Assembly: GCA_023250795.1 (NCBI GenBank)
Contig: JAHFAB010000017.1
Span: forward strand, 1 to 12,623
Source of the DNA: Bacteriovoracaceae bacterium
Lineage (GTDB): Bacteria > Bdellovibrionota > UBA1018
Direction: 5' to 3'
DNA length: 12,623 nucleotides
The notes beneath the pieces were generated by a model that had not been told where the DNA came from, searched no databases, and saw nothing but the letters and a program-made list of their open reading frames with translations. Made by a program: the position numbers and the translations under genes. The stretch's first letter is position 1. Each line of letters begins with the position of its first letter. Positions 1,562-12,623 of the stretch are shown here, in pieces.

Positions 1562-1679
1562 TGGGGGCATCGAGCTACGTTTGCACCGAGCTACCTCGAC
1601 ACTAGAATCGCCGCAGGCGGGTTTCACTACTGAGTTCGGGATGGGATCAGGTGGGACACCGCCGCCAAAGACACCCCCA
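1562..1679 (-). rRNA. rrf: 5S ribosomal RNA
   Basis: The minus strand carries the 5S core CCCACCTGATCCCATCCCG followed by AACTCAGTAGTGAAA, about 118 nt long. Helix I closes the molecule: TGGGGG at the 5' end (about 1679-1674) pairs with CCCCCA at the 3' end (about 1562-1567). It is the last gene of the rRNA operon, about 90 bp after the 23S 3' end and just before the bidirectional terminator. The ends are set by helix I and may be off by 1-3 nt. Confidence 0.95.
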
Positions 1680-1721
1680 AAGGGTGGCTGACTGAGTTGT
1701 TCATTACAAAGCCTCAGAAAG

Positions 1722-1744
1722 CTGAGAATAGGGAAGAAAAGAGA
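1722..1744 (-). other. 23S processing stem, 3' arm
   Basis: On the minus strand this arm reads TCTCTTTTCTTC then CCTATTCTCAG. It pairs with 4803-4826 upstream of 23S: 11 perfect pairs (CTGAGAATAGG with CCTATTCTCAG), a single bulged T, then 12 more pairs with one G-U. A weaker G-U-rich extension continues outward. By analogy with other bacteria this is the double-stranded substrate for RNase III release of pre-23S. The pairing is seen directly; the nuclease is inferred. Confidence 0.8.
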
Positions 1745-1770
1745 ACTAAAAAAGGACTTTAAAAAAAAAA

Positions 1771-4773
<3,003 letters not shown>

Positions 4774-4802
4774 CTTTTCAGTTTCATGTGCTTTCTTTCG
4801 TA

Positions 4803-4826
4803 TCTCTTCTCTTCACCTATTCTCAG
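4803..4826 (-). other. 23S processing stem, 5' arm
   Basis: On the minus strand this reads CTGAGAATAGG, one bulged T, then GAAGAGAAGAGA. It is complementary over 23 pairs to 1722-1744 on the other side of 23S, bringing the two ends of the pre-23S together. It starts about 30 nt upstream of the mature 23S 5' end. Confidence 0.8.
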
Positions 4827-4862
4827 ACTCCTGAAACCTATTCTTTTTTTTATGTCTATTTT

Positions 4863-4892
4863 CGCTCTCGCTCTCGCTTTCGCTTCCGCTCA
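4863..4892. repeat. Hexamer tandem array in the rRNA spacer
   Basis: Five tandem 6-bp units read CGCTCT, CGCTCT, CGCTTT, CGCTTC and CGCTCA. It is a degenerate microsatellite-like tract in the 23S leader, and its function is unknown. Confidence 0.7.
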
Positions 4893-4960
4893 ATAAAAAC
4901 AAACATAAATTCTTCAAAATCTCAAAACTCTAAAAATAAATGAATTCGTGTTCTGCATAT

Positions 4961-4988
4961 TTTTACTTACTTTACTTTACTTACTTTT
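4961..4988. repeat. TTAC/TTTAC low-complexity repeat
   Basis: The units run TTTTAC, TTAC, TTTAC, TTTAC, TTAC, TTTT in an order that is symmetrical around the middle. It lies in the transcribed spacer and is probably slippage-prone. No function is apparent. Confidence 0.6.
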
Positions 4989-5154
4989 CTAATTTGTCTG
5001 CTTCTCTCTTAATTCCTTCATGCTTCCCTTGGCTTTCACCTCTGGTCACATAAAAAAATAATAAGATTAAACAAACATCAATGTTGGTATCATAATTTTA
5101 TTAAATGACTAGATCATGCTTATAAAAACTCAATCCAATCACTTAATGTCATAT

Positions 5155-5170
5155 TTAATTGTCAAAGAAC
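5155..5170 (-). promoter_or_regulatory. boxA antitermination signal in the 16S-23S spacer
   Basis: The minus strand reads GTTCTTTGACAATTAA, close to known rRNA boxA elements (E. coli TGCTCTTTAACA). The leader copy at 7684-7698 reads GTTCTTTGAAAATTT, sharing the first nine bases. Both copies sit a few nt after a hairpin. In the Nus antitermination system boxA binds NusB-NusE and protects rRNA transcription from Rho. Confidence 0.8.
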
Positions 5171-5173
5171 ACT

Positions 5174-5210
5174 GAGAGGGGAGAAATTTCTCATTTCTTC
5201 TCTTCTCTCG
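5174..5210 (-). promoter_or_regulatory. boxB-like hairpin before spacer boxA
   Basis: The minus-strand segment starts GAGAGAAGAG and ends CCCCTCTC, giving a GAGAG/CTCTC closing stem around a GAGAAATTTCTC palindrome. It ends three to four nt before boxA, the same order (hairpin, then GTTCTTTGA) as in the operon leader. The position supports a boxB-like role; the exact fold is an inference. Confidence 0.55.
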
Positions 5211-5258
5211 GAAACTTTTTTAAGCAGCAGCCCTGGTTAATTCTCCGGTCACTCCACT

Positions 5259-5300
5259 TCAGGGCGACTTTAGGGTCTCTAGCTCTAACACCAGCCCTGA
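5259..5300 (-). other. Structured hairpin in the spacer
   Basis: A 7-bp perfect closing stem (TCAGGGC with GCCCTGA) encloses an inner TTAG/CTAA pairing. Part of it, GGTGTTAGAGC, recalls a tRNA D-arm, but no anticodon arm or T-arm can be built, so it is called only a structured spacer element. Confidence 0.45.
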
Positions 5301-5366
5301 CTCAGACCTCACTTCGCCTAACGAAGTAAAACCACTCACTCCGCCTGCTAGTCAGAGATTCAGTCA

Positions 5367-7338
<1,972 letters not shown>

Positions 7339-9187: not shown

Positions 9188-10540
9188 ATGACTGAGCGCC
9201 CCCAAATCCTCATCTGCGATGACGACAAAATGTTTCACTTGGCTATCAAGTACGTACTGAAAGAAAAATACGACTGTAAATCCGCATACAACACCGATGA
9301 AGCTCTCAAGATTGTGAAAAACCAATCCATCGCGGCCCTTCTCTTAGACATCGAAATGAGAACTCCAGAGGAGGGAATCCAGTTCATCCCGATCATCAAA
9401 GAAGTCGACCCGGATCTTGCCATCGTAATGGTCAGTGGAAAGACTGATTTTCAAAGTGTGAAAAAATCGATGCAACTGGGAGCCAGCGATTATATTCCAA
9501 AAGCTTTTCAAGCAGATGATTTGGCTCACACGATCGCTCTGGTTTTAGAGCGCCAAAAACTTGTACAAATAAAAGAACAGCAAAATTTTGAGGTCAACAC
9601 ACAGCAAAAAGCAAATCAACTCATCGGTAGATCTTCTCAAATCAATGCACTAAAAAAATCCATTGAAAAAATCAAAATGAGTTCAGCCAACGTCATCATC
9701 ACAGGAGAAACCGGAACCGGAAAAGAAGTCATTGCCCGATCTTTGCGAGGAAATCACTCCGATGGAACTCTAGCTCCCTTTGTGGCCATAGATTCTGCCA
9801 CGATCCAAAGCTCTACAGCAGAAAGTATGCTCTTTGGTCACGAAAAAGGGGCTTTCACCGGAGCAGAAAAACAGACCAAAGGAATTTTTGAAGAAGCACA
9901 GGGTGGAATCGTTTACTTTGATGAAATTGGAAACATGCCTCTTGAGATCCAGGCTAAACTTTTACGAGTCATCCAAGAAAAACAAATTTCAAGATTAGGC
10001 TCTTCTAAAATTACCAATCTCGACTTTAGGGTTATTTGTGCAACCAATAAAAATCTAGATGAGATGGTCAAACAGGGTTTGTTTAAAGACGATCTCTTAC
10101 AAAGACTGAACGTCATCTCGATTCACGCATCTCCACTTCGTGAACGAAAAGAAGACATACCAGAGCTCTTGGGACATTTTCTCCATCAATATGCGAAATC
10201 AACTCAAAGAAAATTGAAGTTCACTGCCGAATGCATAGAAACTTTGCAAAATTACAATTGGCCTGGAAATATTCGCGAACTTGGAAATCTTGTGGCATTT
10301 CTCCTCACCATGATCGAGGGAGATGAAATCGACATCTCGGATCTCCCACCGAAAATTCGAGATCGCGCATGTAACAAAAAAGAAGAGACGGGTTTTTATA
10401 AAAAAGTATCTCAGTTTGAAAAAGAACTTCTCACTCAAGAGTATCAAAAGCTGGATGGAAATGTCAGCAAGCTGGCGCTCTCATTAGGGATGGATCGCTC
10501 GCATCTGTACACCAAACTCAGGGAATACAAGCTGCACTAA
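9188..10540 (+). CDS. NtrC-family sigma-54 response regulator
   Basis: A 450-residue, three-domain transcriptional activator. The receiver domain (about 5-122) has the acidic pocket DDD (11-13), phospho-acceptor D54 in LLLDIEM, the switch S83 and conserved K105. The AAA+ domain (about 145-385) has Walker A GETGTGKE (173-180), GAFTGA (221-226), Walker B YFDE (D245-E246), arginine-finger segment FKDDLLQRL and [10 protein letters not shown] Fis-type helix-turn-helix ends the protein (GNVSKLALSLGMDRSHLYTK). Phosphorylation by a sensor kinase would drive hexamer formation and open-complex formation by sigma-54 polymerase. No histidine kinase gene is in the window, so it is an orphan here. It is divergent from the PspF-like activator, whose sigma-54 promoter lies in the shared 197-bp gap. 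The receiver starts directly after this ATG, so the start is credible even without a Shine-Dalgarno sequence. The last codon abuts the palindromic element. Confidence 0.95.
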   Translation: MTERPQILICDDDKMFHLAIKYVLKEKYDCKSAYNTDEALKIVKNQSIAALLLDIEMRTPEEGIQFIPIIKEVDPDLAIVMVSGKTDFQSVKKSMQLGASDYIPKAFQADDLAHTIALVLERQKLVQIKEQQNFEVNTQQKANQLIGRSSQINALKKSIEKIKMSSANVIITGETGTGKEVIARSLRGNHSDGTLAPFVAIDSATIQSSTAESMLFGHEKGAFTGAEKQTKGIFEEAQGGIVYFDEIGNMPLEIQAKLLRVIQEKQISRLGSSKITNLDFRVICATNKNLDEMVKQGLFKDDLLQRLNVISIHASPLRERKEDIPELLGHFLHQYAKSTQRKLKFTAECIETLQNYNWPGNIRELGNLVAFLLTMIEGDEIDISDLPPKIRDRACNKKEETGFYKKVSQFEKELLTQEYQKLDGNVSKLALSLGMDRSHLYTKLREYKLH

Positions 10541-10541
10541 G

Positions 10542-10697
10542 TGCACAGTGATGGAATCAAAGAGGCTTTTTCTAAATTAGACAGTGATGTCGGGGACGCA
10601 CATCCATGTGCTCGCTGTGCCTATGTCCATCAGTGGACGCACACGCCCCTCACACTGTCTAATTTAGAAAAAGCCTCTTTGATTCCATCACTGTGCG
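10542..10697. mobile_element. 156-bp palindromic MITE-like element with CTAAG flanks
   Basis: Two perfect 44-bp inverted arms (10543-10586 and 10653-10696, starting GCACAGTGATGGAATC) flank a 66-bp centre. The outermost bases (10542 and 10697) would form a G-U pair. CTAAG occurs directly outside both ends (10537-10541 and 10698-10702), as expected for a 5-bp target-site duplication. There is no transposase ORF, so it would be non-autonomous. The left CTAAG includes the TAA stop of the NtrC-type gene, leaving that gene intact. Removing the element and one CTAAG leaves only about 5 bp between the two convergent genes. It could also serve as a bidirectional terminator or a stable RNA hairpin. The palindrome is certain; the mobile-element reading is inferred. 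Confidence 0.7.
10598..10638. other. Two hairpins in the head of the palindrome
   Basis: GCACA-TCCA-TGTGC (10598-10611) and GTCCA-TCAG-TGGAC (10625-10638) are perfect five-pair hairpins. With GGGG (10592-10595) facing CCCC (10646-10649), the centre folds as a branched head on the 44-bp stem. GGACGCACA is also repeated directly (10594-10602 and 10635-10643). Confidence 0.6.
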
Positions 10698-10706
10698 CTA
10701 AGCATA

Positions 10707-12134
10707 CTACTGAAATGGGTACTCATTTCTTTTCAGTATTTCACTTTTATAAATCTCCGCACTCGCTCTCGGTACCCTTTTCAAATTCTGATTGTATTGA
10801 ATTTCCACCAAGCCAAATCGGTAGGCGTACCCGTAAAGCCATTCGAAGTTATCCATCAGACTCCAATGATAGTAGCCTCGCAGATCCAGCGGATTTCCTA
10901 ATGAACTTCCAAACACTGCACCATCTAAAGAGTGCAAATGTGCCTCAATGAATTTCCCGCGTCTCGAATCGGCTCCATCAGCCAACCCATTTTCAGTTAC
11001 AACCAATGGGGTCTGTGGAAACTGCGCTGCAGTCTGCCTGAGAATTCTCTCCAGTCCCTCTGGGTAGATCGACCAACCGTTGTCCCCACTTGGCCCGGTC
11101 GGCATTACCCACTCCACTTTGAGCAAACTTTTGGGATTGTATTTAATATAATAGCGAGAATAATAGTTCACCCCAATCCAATCCATCAACCCATCTCCCA
11201 TCTGCCAAGGTTGCAGATCTTCTTTGGGAAACTCTCGGTTGAAATTTTTTCCAAAAATAATTTCTGGATGCAGTTTGAACTCTAAGCGATCTGAAATAAT
11301 TCCTCTGAGAAAATCCCAGTTATTGACTTGAGTCACCCAATCAGCAGCTTCGATATCTTTCTGGTTTTGCGGATCCAGAGGATCATAGAGATGAAGGGAA
11401 TTGGCTAAACCCACTCCCCGAAGCTTGCCATCTGGACCTCGTCCGTTCGGAGAGGGTCCTTGGACTTCGTGTATCATTGCGCTCACCATTCGATAGGCTC
11501 TCGCCATCTGAAAAGCTGCTTCGTAAGCCGAGTCTAATGATTGCAACTGGGGTGGAATCTCCGCTTTGAGATATCCCATCAGAACTAAAACCATGGGCTC
11601 GTTAAATGGTATCCAAAGATCACAGAGATCTCCCAGCTGAGTGACCACAAAATGGGCATATTCTAAAAACCACTTCGGACTCTCCTCTGAAAGCCATCCC
11701 CCTTTTGGATGGAACCATTTGGGATGAACAAAATGGTGGAGTGCAATCATGGGCTTGATACCCTTTGCACGCATGGCCTGAAAGCGTCTTCGATAATGTT
11801 CGATCACTTTCGTCGAAAAAACTCCATAGATCGGCTCGATTTTTTCCCACGCAAGAGAAGTTCTGACACTGTTTAGCCCAAGTTGGACGGCCTGGTTGTC
11901 ATCTATTTCGTAAAGCTCCCATTGGTTCACAGCCAAATCCGCTGTGTCAGCATTTCGAATAGGAGACGTTCCCGTCTGTGGGTGCTCAAAATCCCACCAG
12001 TCACTCAGCTCTCCCCCTCCTTGTACCCCCTCAGTTTGGTGAGCCGAATATGCGGCCCCCCAGATAAATCCAGGAGGATAGTGACTGTCTGCGTGTGCCA
12101 ACGGGTAAGCTAATAGAAAAAATAGAATAGACAT
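10707..12134 (-). CDS. Secreted family 1 beta-glycosidase
   Basis: A retaining glycoside hydrolase of family GH1, cleaving beta-linked glucosides or galactosides. In the 475-residue form the acid/base is E179 in WIPFNEP (174-180) and the nucleophile is E381 in VVTENG (378-383). Other family marks are FIWGAAYSAHQTEG (23-36), the LHHF segment (132-135) and WSLMDNFEW (424-432). The length is normal for GH1. The first in-frame ATG is at 12188, but it overlaps the divergent gene's ATG and adds 18 residues ahead of an otherwise typical Sec signal peptide. The ATG at 12134 gives MSILFFLLAYPLAHA, with likely cleavage after AHA, and has GGGGG just upstream, so it is preferred. Export is unusual, since most bacterial GH1 enzymes are cytoplasmic; this one probably acts in the periplasm or outside. 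Substrate unknown. The stop is 10 bp from the palindromic element. Confidence 0.93.
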   Translation of the reverse strand: MSILFFLLAYPLAHADSHYPPGFIWGAAYSAHQTEGVQGGGELSDWWDFEHPQTGTSPIRNADTADLAVNQWELYEIDDNQAVQLGLNSVRTSLAWEKIEPIYGVFSTKVIEHYRRRFQAMRAKGIKPMIALHHFVHPKWFHPKGGWLSEESPKWFLEYAHFVVTQLGDLCDLWIPFNEPMVLVLMGYLKAEIPPQLQSLDSAYEAAFQMARAYRMVSAMIHEVQGPSPNGRGPDGKLRGVGLANSLHLYDPLDPQNQKDIEAADWVTQVNNWDFLRGIISDRLEFKLHPEIIFGKNFNREFPKEDLQPWQMGDGLMDWIGVNYYSRYYIKYNPKSLLKVEWVMPTGPSGDNGWSIYPEGLERILRQTAAQFPQTPLVVTENGLADGADSRRGKFIEAHLHSLDGAVFGSSLGNPLDLRGYYHWSLMDNFEWLYGYAYRFGLVEIQYNQNLKRVPRASAEIYKSEILKRNEYPFQ

Positions 12135-12186
12135 AGGACCCCCGATAATAATTGACTCGCCTTTCCCCAAAGAATAAACACAGTTC
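12135..12186. promoter_or_regulatory. Divergent GH1/binding-protein intergenic region
   Basis: About 52 bp between the preferred GH1 start and the binding-protein start. On the plus strand TTGACT (about 12152-12157) is a fair -35, but only a weak -10 (TAAACA) follows at 17 bp. On the minus strand TATTAT is followed within ten nt by the GH1 ATG. Both transcripts would have very short leaders. Assignments are weak. Confidence 0.3.
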
Positions 12187-12623
12187 ATGAAAAAAACACT
12201 CTTTTTCGCTTTGGGATTCTTACTCTTGCAGCAGGCTCACGCGTCTGCAGAAAAAAAACAAATCTGGGTTTACACATCCATCTATAAGGAGTTTGCAGCT
12301 CCGTTAAAAAAAGCTTTCGAAGAAAAGCATCCCGATATCGATGTGCAGATTTTCCAGGGGGGGTCTGAGAAAATTCAGGCTAAAGTAGAAGCTGAAATTC
12401 TGGCCAAAAAACCCCAAGCTGATATTTTGATGACCTCTGATCCGTTTTGGAGTCTAGACTTGGTCAAAAGAGGGTTTGCTCTTACACGCCCCAAGCACAG
12501 CCCCAGTGAAACCAATTACTATTCTCTGATGGTGATGATTTGTCATAAAGATTTTCCGAGTGAGAAAAGACCGAGGTCTTTTCAGGATTTAACTAAACCT
12601 GAATATAAAAAACTCGTACAAAT
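12187..12623 (+). CDS. ABC-transporter substrate-binding protein, 3' end outside the window
   Basis: The first 145 residues of a periplasmic solute-binding protein are visible. A signal peptide MKKTLFFALGFLLLQQAHA is probably cleaved after AHA or ASA. The mature start (QIWVYTSIYKEFAAPLKKAF) and the later AEILAKKPQADILMTSDPFW match the family 1 extracellular binding proteins of the ferric-iron and 2-aminoethylphosphonate type (AfuA/FbpA/PhnS-like): a short strand ending in a YTS-type turn, an FEEKHPDIDV-like segment, then a QADILMTSD block. The frame is open to the window end, so permease and ATPase genes may follow downstream. No strong ribosome binding site is seen before the ATG, which shares bases with an alternative GH1 start. 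The ligand cannot be decided from this part; iron, phosphonate or polyamine are all possible. Confidence 0.85.
   Translation, partial: MKKTLFFALGFLLLQQAHASAEKKQIWVYTSIYKEFAAPLKKAFEEKHPDIDVQIFQGGSEKIQAKVEAEILAKKPQADILMTSDPFWSLDLVKRGFALTRPKHSPSETNYYSLMVMICHKDFPSEKRPRSFQDLTKPEYKKLVQ

Follow-up and report, generated by a model that had tools for sequence, protein, structure and literature searches.

A dispersed family of long hairpins with a predicted CsrA-docking head and concerted arms in a Bacteriovoracaceae bacterium

The palindrome that separates two convergent genes in the window (the whole stretch of DNA analysed, 12,623 nucleotides, which is the entire contig C240 of a draft genome of 2.43 Mb, 473 contigs and 77% completeness) is one of at least 52 related hairpins in its home genome. 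It is interpreted here, with moderate confidence, as a multi-copy hairpin element with a predicted CsrA-docking head, the arms of which are re-copied and the units of which are dispersed. The element is ordinary as a dispersed repeat, and unusual in that it combines a conserved head of the CsrA type with arms that change in sequence and remain paired. The conserved GGA-loop head is the main point, and was absent from the initial annotation, which had described a possible non-autonomous mobile element that might also act as a terminator.

The window hairpin consists of two 44-bp arms (10543–10586 and 10653–10696), each the exact reverse complement of the other, joined by a 66-bp centre (10587–10652). 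The same five bases, CTAAG, lie at both borders (10537–10541 and 10698–10702); neither arms nor borders are assigned a strand. This architecture agrees to the base with the initial annotation. When two mismatches are allowed the arms extend to 50 bp with 96% complementarity. The RNA folding z-score is −15.6 on the minus strand and −17.3 on the plus strand (against 200 dinucleotide shuffles each), and one Markov-3 shuffle of 349 kb of the home genome contained no arms of 16 bp or more. The left neighbour (9188–10540, plus strand) encodes an NtrC-type regulator with a receiver, a sigma-54 activation domain and a Fis-type HTH, and its stop codon TAA (10538–10540) falls within the left border. The right neighbour (10707–12188, minus strand) encodes a glycosyl hydrolase of family 1 (GH1), its stop codon TAG occupies 10707–10709, and the head strand of the element lies just downstream of this stop. 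Both genes were assigned from their open reading frames and Pfam. A Pfam scan of the five main open reading frames of the window found no transposase, as had been stated earlier. CTAAG and its counterpart CTTAG also match at 4 of 5 positions when inverted, so that a repeat finder takes the supposed duplication as the outer end of an imperfect inverted repeat. Should CTAAG be a duplication, removal of the element would leave the stop codons 5 bp apart, as the initial annotation noted; such spacing is ordinary in this genome, where the median gap is 21 (quartiles 3 and 84) for the 72 convergent pairs that are free of elements. Elsewhere in the window (1562–7338, minus strand) is an rRNA operon with tRNA-Ile (GAT) in its spacer, adjoining HEAT-repeat and sigma-54 activator genes.

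The part that is common to the family is the centre, and the arms are not shared. The window element matches 7 other places in the home genome, each match covering the centre and a few adjoining bases. The 44-bp arms, which had been suggested as a query for further copies, match only themselves in that genome. At five of these loci (L002–L006) the same centre is enclosed by long perfect hairpins (30–46 bp) with unrelated arm sequences; a further copy (L008) is slightly decayed and another (L007) truncated. Scans for long inverted repeats revealed two more head classes, B (approximately 78 nt) and C (mostly 46–63 nt), in addition to class A, to which the window copy belongs. The A and B heads have UGAGG...CCGACA in common, and the window head is found by model R3 and by model R2, which was built from class B only (35.7 bits, E 4.5e-6). 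Covariance models give 29 class C hairpins and one more at C121:469, 15 of class B and 7 of class A, the last being 8 model matches less one that belongs to class B. The resulting 52 copies are a lower bound because contigs break in such hairpins.

Several other features were observed alongside these copies. A separate dispersed hairpin repeat with arms near ATTTCGCAAAAAGTGAAAT and a GGGGCC-rich loop is present in the home genome (L031:3746-3823, L123:1542-1616, L013:2233-2331, L051:4218-4290 and 5162-5236) and was set aside as different. Head-to-head pairs of elements within approximately 300 bp, with their head strands pointing apart, are found in the home genome (L048:6751-7065) and repeatedly in genome G001 (L217, L218, L219, L226). 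Transfer RNA genes lie close to elements at L075:1619-1705, L182:1374-1446, L186:1928-1999 and L234:2729-2802.

BLAST of the class A core against 97 genomes reached the home genome only, and structure-based head models (R1, R2 and R3) were therefore used. Among the 97 genomes, the home genome included, R1 matched 10, R3 matched 7 and R2 matched 7 (limits 0.01, 0.01 and 0.001, respectively); most relatives gave no match to these models. Related hairpins are present in other genera: by eye, GGA-head hairpins with arms of at least 12 bp were recognized in G001, G041, G039, G002, G025, G021, G012, G095, G010, G047, G049, G009 and G027. No enclosing hairpin was found at L156, L157 and L164, and at L165 there is only one of 9 bp. 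A single match in G022 was excluded as a relative, the element, flank and coordinates being equal to those of home contig C64 (L152, G022:C158; L211, G000:C64); these genomes are said to differ in genus, and perhaps one contig was binned twice. The class A pattern had no exact match in the genome_contigs or viral_contigs collections, and blastn with the head returned nothing from the phages or plasmids collections. A 20-mer taken from the B head had no match in viral_contigs and two in genome_contigs, which are GC-rich, without an inverted repeat of 14 or more, and were judged to be chance. The idea that long hairpins are unique to the home genome proved wrong; in 321 kb from 20 relatives there were no arms of 18 or more, but these stretches were of 20 kb or less each and of higher GC.

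Read on the strand equivalent to the minus strand of the window, the heads are predicted to fold into branched RNAs, the exception being a copy of the C13 type (L013) with a different minimum-energy fold. On this head strand the mini-hairpins carry ANGGAN loops, of which B and C heads contain two or three and the window copy one that is intact. In the window the first mini-hairpin, GCAC-AUGGAU-GUGC (10598–10611, minus strand), presents a hexaloop of the ANGGAX form described in PMC4005645 and is an intact predicted CsrA-type site. The second, GUCC-ACUGAU-GGAC (10625–10638, minus strand), has a loop that has lost the GGA retained at the same place by the other six class A copies. The GGA motif is seen to decay: the window copy has lost one of two sites, and the second loop is without GGA in two class A copies.

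Among hairpins with arms of 25 or more and loops of 40–130, the motif CANGGANG occurs in 43 of 44 from the home genome (mean 3.1 and maximum 10 in shuffled sequences), on one strand only in 41 of them, and likewise in 23 of 26 from G001 (2.0 in shuffles) and 3 of 3 from G041; these counts take in related copies and, in part, loci that were fetched by their heads. On contigs that were not chosen for hairpins, all five hairpins with arms of 25 or more and a loop of 40 or more carry CANGGANG. In class C, the A, G, G and A of loop 2 are kept in 62 of 62 aligned rows, and the GGA of loop 1 is kept in 56 and lost in 6; the motif is itself part of the model that selected these rows, three of which repeat a place or sequence. 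The class C stems vary and covary, with a covariation of 0.747 compared with 0.170 in shuffled and at most 0.129 in slid alignments, and 88.3% pairing compared with 56.2%, in an alignment that was fitted to the structure. Two of the five covariation measures are weak, being reached by 12 and 102 of 500 shuffles. G-U pairs are few in the head stems, which would also be compatible with a hairpin formed by DNA.

The loops suggest that the head may be a docking site for CsrA. The high-affinity loop of RsmE is described as a hexaloop ANGGAX on a stem (PMC4005645), E. coli CsrA is reported to select RUACARGGAUGU in SELEX, and the CsrA dimer to bridge sites 10–63 nt apart (both PMC7652899). A CsrA gene is present in the home genome and in 56 of the 58 genomes searched. 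Among 4227 Rfam families the best match of the window is TwoAYGGAY (RF01731; 32.7 bits, E 0.0012 for 241 bases), for which CsrA binding was proposed from motif matches (PMC4333381). The match is on the minus (head) strand only, although the arms are common to both strands; stems alone attract miRNA models in Rfam. TwoAYGGAY is also the top Rfam family for class B copies, one of which scores 34.4 bits. The gathering cut-off of 43 bits was reached nowhere in 40 genomes (best 42.0); the 11 matches of the home genome in this search are all B heads, the window copy not among them. Matches at E ≤ 1, most of them weak, occur in 13 other genomes and in none of 14 control genomes, and 13 loci that carry elements of class C or A were without a match at E 0.5.

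The element may work like TwoAYGGAY without being filed in that family. As described in PMC4333381, TwoAYGGAY likewise has a poorly conserved outer stem with GGA-loop hairpins inside. The elements differ in that they score below its gathering cut-off, have three head classes and locus-specific stems as long as 87 bp, and occur in dozens of copies per genome, and class C loci of relatives are unmatched. Repeated ANGGAN hairpin loops on one strand are also the hallmark by which the element resembles CsrA-titrating small RNAs of the CsrB/RsmZ type. Those are dedicated small RNA genes, whereas the element has two or three sites per copy and is spread genome-wide. Searches of open-licence literature turned up no earlier account of CsrA-type hairpins as a dispersed repeat.

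The arms are matched within each copy and divergent between copies. In class B (14 copies) 5 of 831 arm pairs are mismatched within copies, while arms differ by 35% between copies (least 13%). Similarly, in class C2 (14 copies) 5 of 845 pairs are mismatched within copies, and the difference between copies is 28% (least 7%) for the arms and 8% for the heads. Mismatch within copies is thus 0.6%, compared with 28–35% between them, and indels in one arm are mirrored in the other. Across the 44 hairpins of the home genome 23 of 2619 arm pairs are mismatched, 8 of them G-U. All of these mismatch rates are lower bounds, as the extension rules favour matching ends. The initial annotation held that perfect arms require a recent origin or strong selection; arms that diverge between copies and stay matched within them do not bear out the need for recent origin. 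Arms that are near-perfect and nevertheless drift apart between loci suggest that one arm was re-copied from the other. A stem kept only as RNA would be expected to hold more G-U pairs, and their scarcity favours a copying of one arm from the other at the level of DNA. The route is perhaps template switching during replication, a published way in which perfect hairpins are created and maintained (PMC8794818). In the quasipalindrome correction covered by that source one arm is similarly re-made from the other to give perfect stems; here the process is deduced from a comparison of many copies, the stems of which reach 87 bp. SbcD was above its cut-off in none of 58 genomes (22 have weaker matches, and the home genome, 77% complete, none), compared with 8 of 14 controls. 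This would fit weakly with a tolerance of long palindromes; element-free genomes are without SbcD too, and its loss may permit the hairpins but does not explain them.

Elements persist at orthologous places in two species of one genus. The pair L274/L288 is 93.9% identical over 3506 bp, and a short deletion in L288 has removed one GGA hairpin. In the pair L280/L294 (93.0% over 2205 bp) a GGA stem has changed on both sides with AUGGAU unchanged, and the arm differences are one-sided by eye, with two mismatches in L280 and one in L294. In addition, L283 and L293, from two related species, are 98.3% identical over 233 bp in unrelated flanks, and represent a recent dispersal or transfer; on this point the earlier suggestion of mobility gained support. 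Class C2 units with both ends matched span 186–191 bp with ends near TTGTAACCGGTCAG (by eye). Two further arrangements were seen. In G041:C23 (L163:62-132 and 1501-1571) two inverted near-copies flank approximately 1.3 kb with a 198-residue open reading frame that is HNH nuclease-like by eye. At L218:1420-1640 (G001:C10; the same stretch in L167) the flanks beyond the hairpin form a second, diverged inverted repeat that seemingly includes the end of a reading frame (by eye), as if flanking DNA had been copied inverted.

Placement was examined for 51 of the 52 elements (C162 left out) with our own calls of open reading frames of 100 residues or more. Of these 51, 12 have a stop codon close to each end and 24 close to one end (36 of 51 near a stop), and a start codon is nearby in 16. 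Between convergent genes lie 16 of the 46 elements with two known neighbours, compared with 72 of 409 other pairs (Fisher p 0.009), and 8 of 46 lie between divergent genes. Relative to a single adjacent gene the head strand is sense in 9 cases and antisense in 15, which rules out the head as a 3′-UTR mark of the adjacent gene as a rule. Two readings remain: that the elements are decoys scattered over the genome, or that they are mobile and would use the head for their own ends.

MITEs and REP/REPIN sequences are short, dispersed, palindromic intergenic repeats, often found by gene ends, and the element resembles them in being short, dispersed, palindromic and intergenic. It differs in that its arms are unshared in class A and loosely shared in B and C2, that there is no general duplication and that no associated transposase was found. 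A plain non-autonomous transposon, with the arms as the terminal inverted repeats on which a transposase acts, the head as a passenger and CTAAG as a target duplication, is considered unlikely. It would account for the dispersed copies, the 233-bp unit in unrelated flanks, the C2 units of defined span and ends, and the one-armed remnants that occur. MITEs are recognized by terminal inverted repeats shared between copies, but the class A arms are unrelated, those of B and C2 are only loosely alike, and what class A conserves is the centre, not the ends. Direct repeats of five or more bases at the ends, which the initial annotation would lead one to expect, are found in 4 of 43 hairpins, slightly above expectation (1.0, p 0.016), and of these four one falls in a palindrome (L147) and another in a T-run (L211); with four or more bases the count is 5 of 43 (2.3 expected, p 0.054). 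There is no constant duplication, no autonomous copy was found, no transposase was recognized by eye in the open reading frames listed around copies in G002 and G001, and the loop motif and covariation are left unexplained. The earlier proposal of a mobile non-autonomous element holds for a dispersed repeat without its own transposase at many unrelated loci, but neither the 44-bp arm nor a TGCACAG end serves as its family signature. A REPIN-like alternative, in which a Y1 (RAYT-type) transposase would act on the head as a hairpin of single-stranded DNA, appears improbable. The few G-U pairs in the head stems would suit it, and Y1 transposase domains occur in 41 of 58 genomes, with three in the home genome. 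However, Y1 genes are frequent whether or not elements are present, a search with the class C model and for long-arm hairpins found neither near four Y1 genes (L196 and L197 of the home genome; L232 and L233 of G001), and the ANGGAN loops match CsrA in detail.

The excess between convergent genes and the stop codons near one or both ends are also what would be seen if each hairpin were a local bidirectional terminator, or an mRNA 3′-end barrier, for two convergent genes. We regard this as a poor candidate, for there is no T-run directly after the giant stem on either strand. A terminator function as proposed by the initial annotation may still exist; the two terminator-like matches are a stem of 5–6 pairs at the outer edge of the long stem (minus strand 10548–10532), which is the only part that scores. 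Moreover, the same head recurs at many loci, convergent gaps are small anyway, and elements also lie between divergent genes and near start codons. An assembly artefact might be suspected in a draft of 473 contigs, some of which terminate within hairpins of this kind (L247, L250) or contain N in one (L241), and is judged exceedingly improbable. The same design with other arms appears in several separately assembled genomes, and a divergence of 28–35% between copies with mirrored indels cannot stem from the merging of near-identical paths, although path merging could lower the 0.6% arm mismatch figure.

In the favoured interpretation as a dispersed hairpin with a CsrA-docking head, the element is a structured head of approximately 46–100 nt, with two or three GGA-loop mini-hairpins, carried by a long stem. 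Provided that transcription covers the head strand (minus in the window), the ANGGAN loops could dock CsrA, and many copies together could hold a share of the CsrA of the cell, or mark the RNAs that contain them, while the stem would stabilize or end the RNA. Selection on loops and pairing would maintain the head. The stem sequence would not be kept, one arm being re-copied from its partner, most simply by switching of template by the replication fork at the hairpin. Copies would spread as units of approximately 190–230 bp to intergenic sites, with an excess between convergent genes. A wider proposal is tentative: that this is a mobile family of CsrA-docking RNA hairpins, selfish or domesticated, in which 52 or more dispersed decoys partly set free CsrA, the palindromic DNA keeps the stems perfect and a lineage without SbcD above the cut-off may tolerate long palindromes. 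If the interpretation is correct, CsrA would be titrated also by a dispersed repeat family, and not just by a few dedicated small RNAs, and the family would provide dozens of natural replicates for how the copying of DNA keeps the arms of a drifting hairpin paired.
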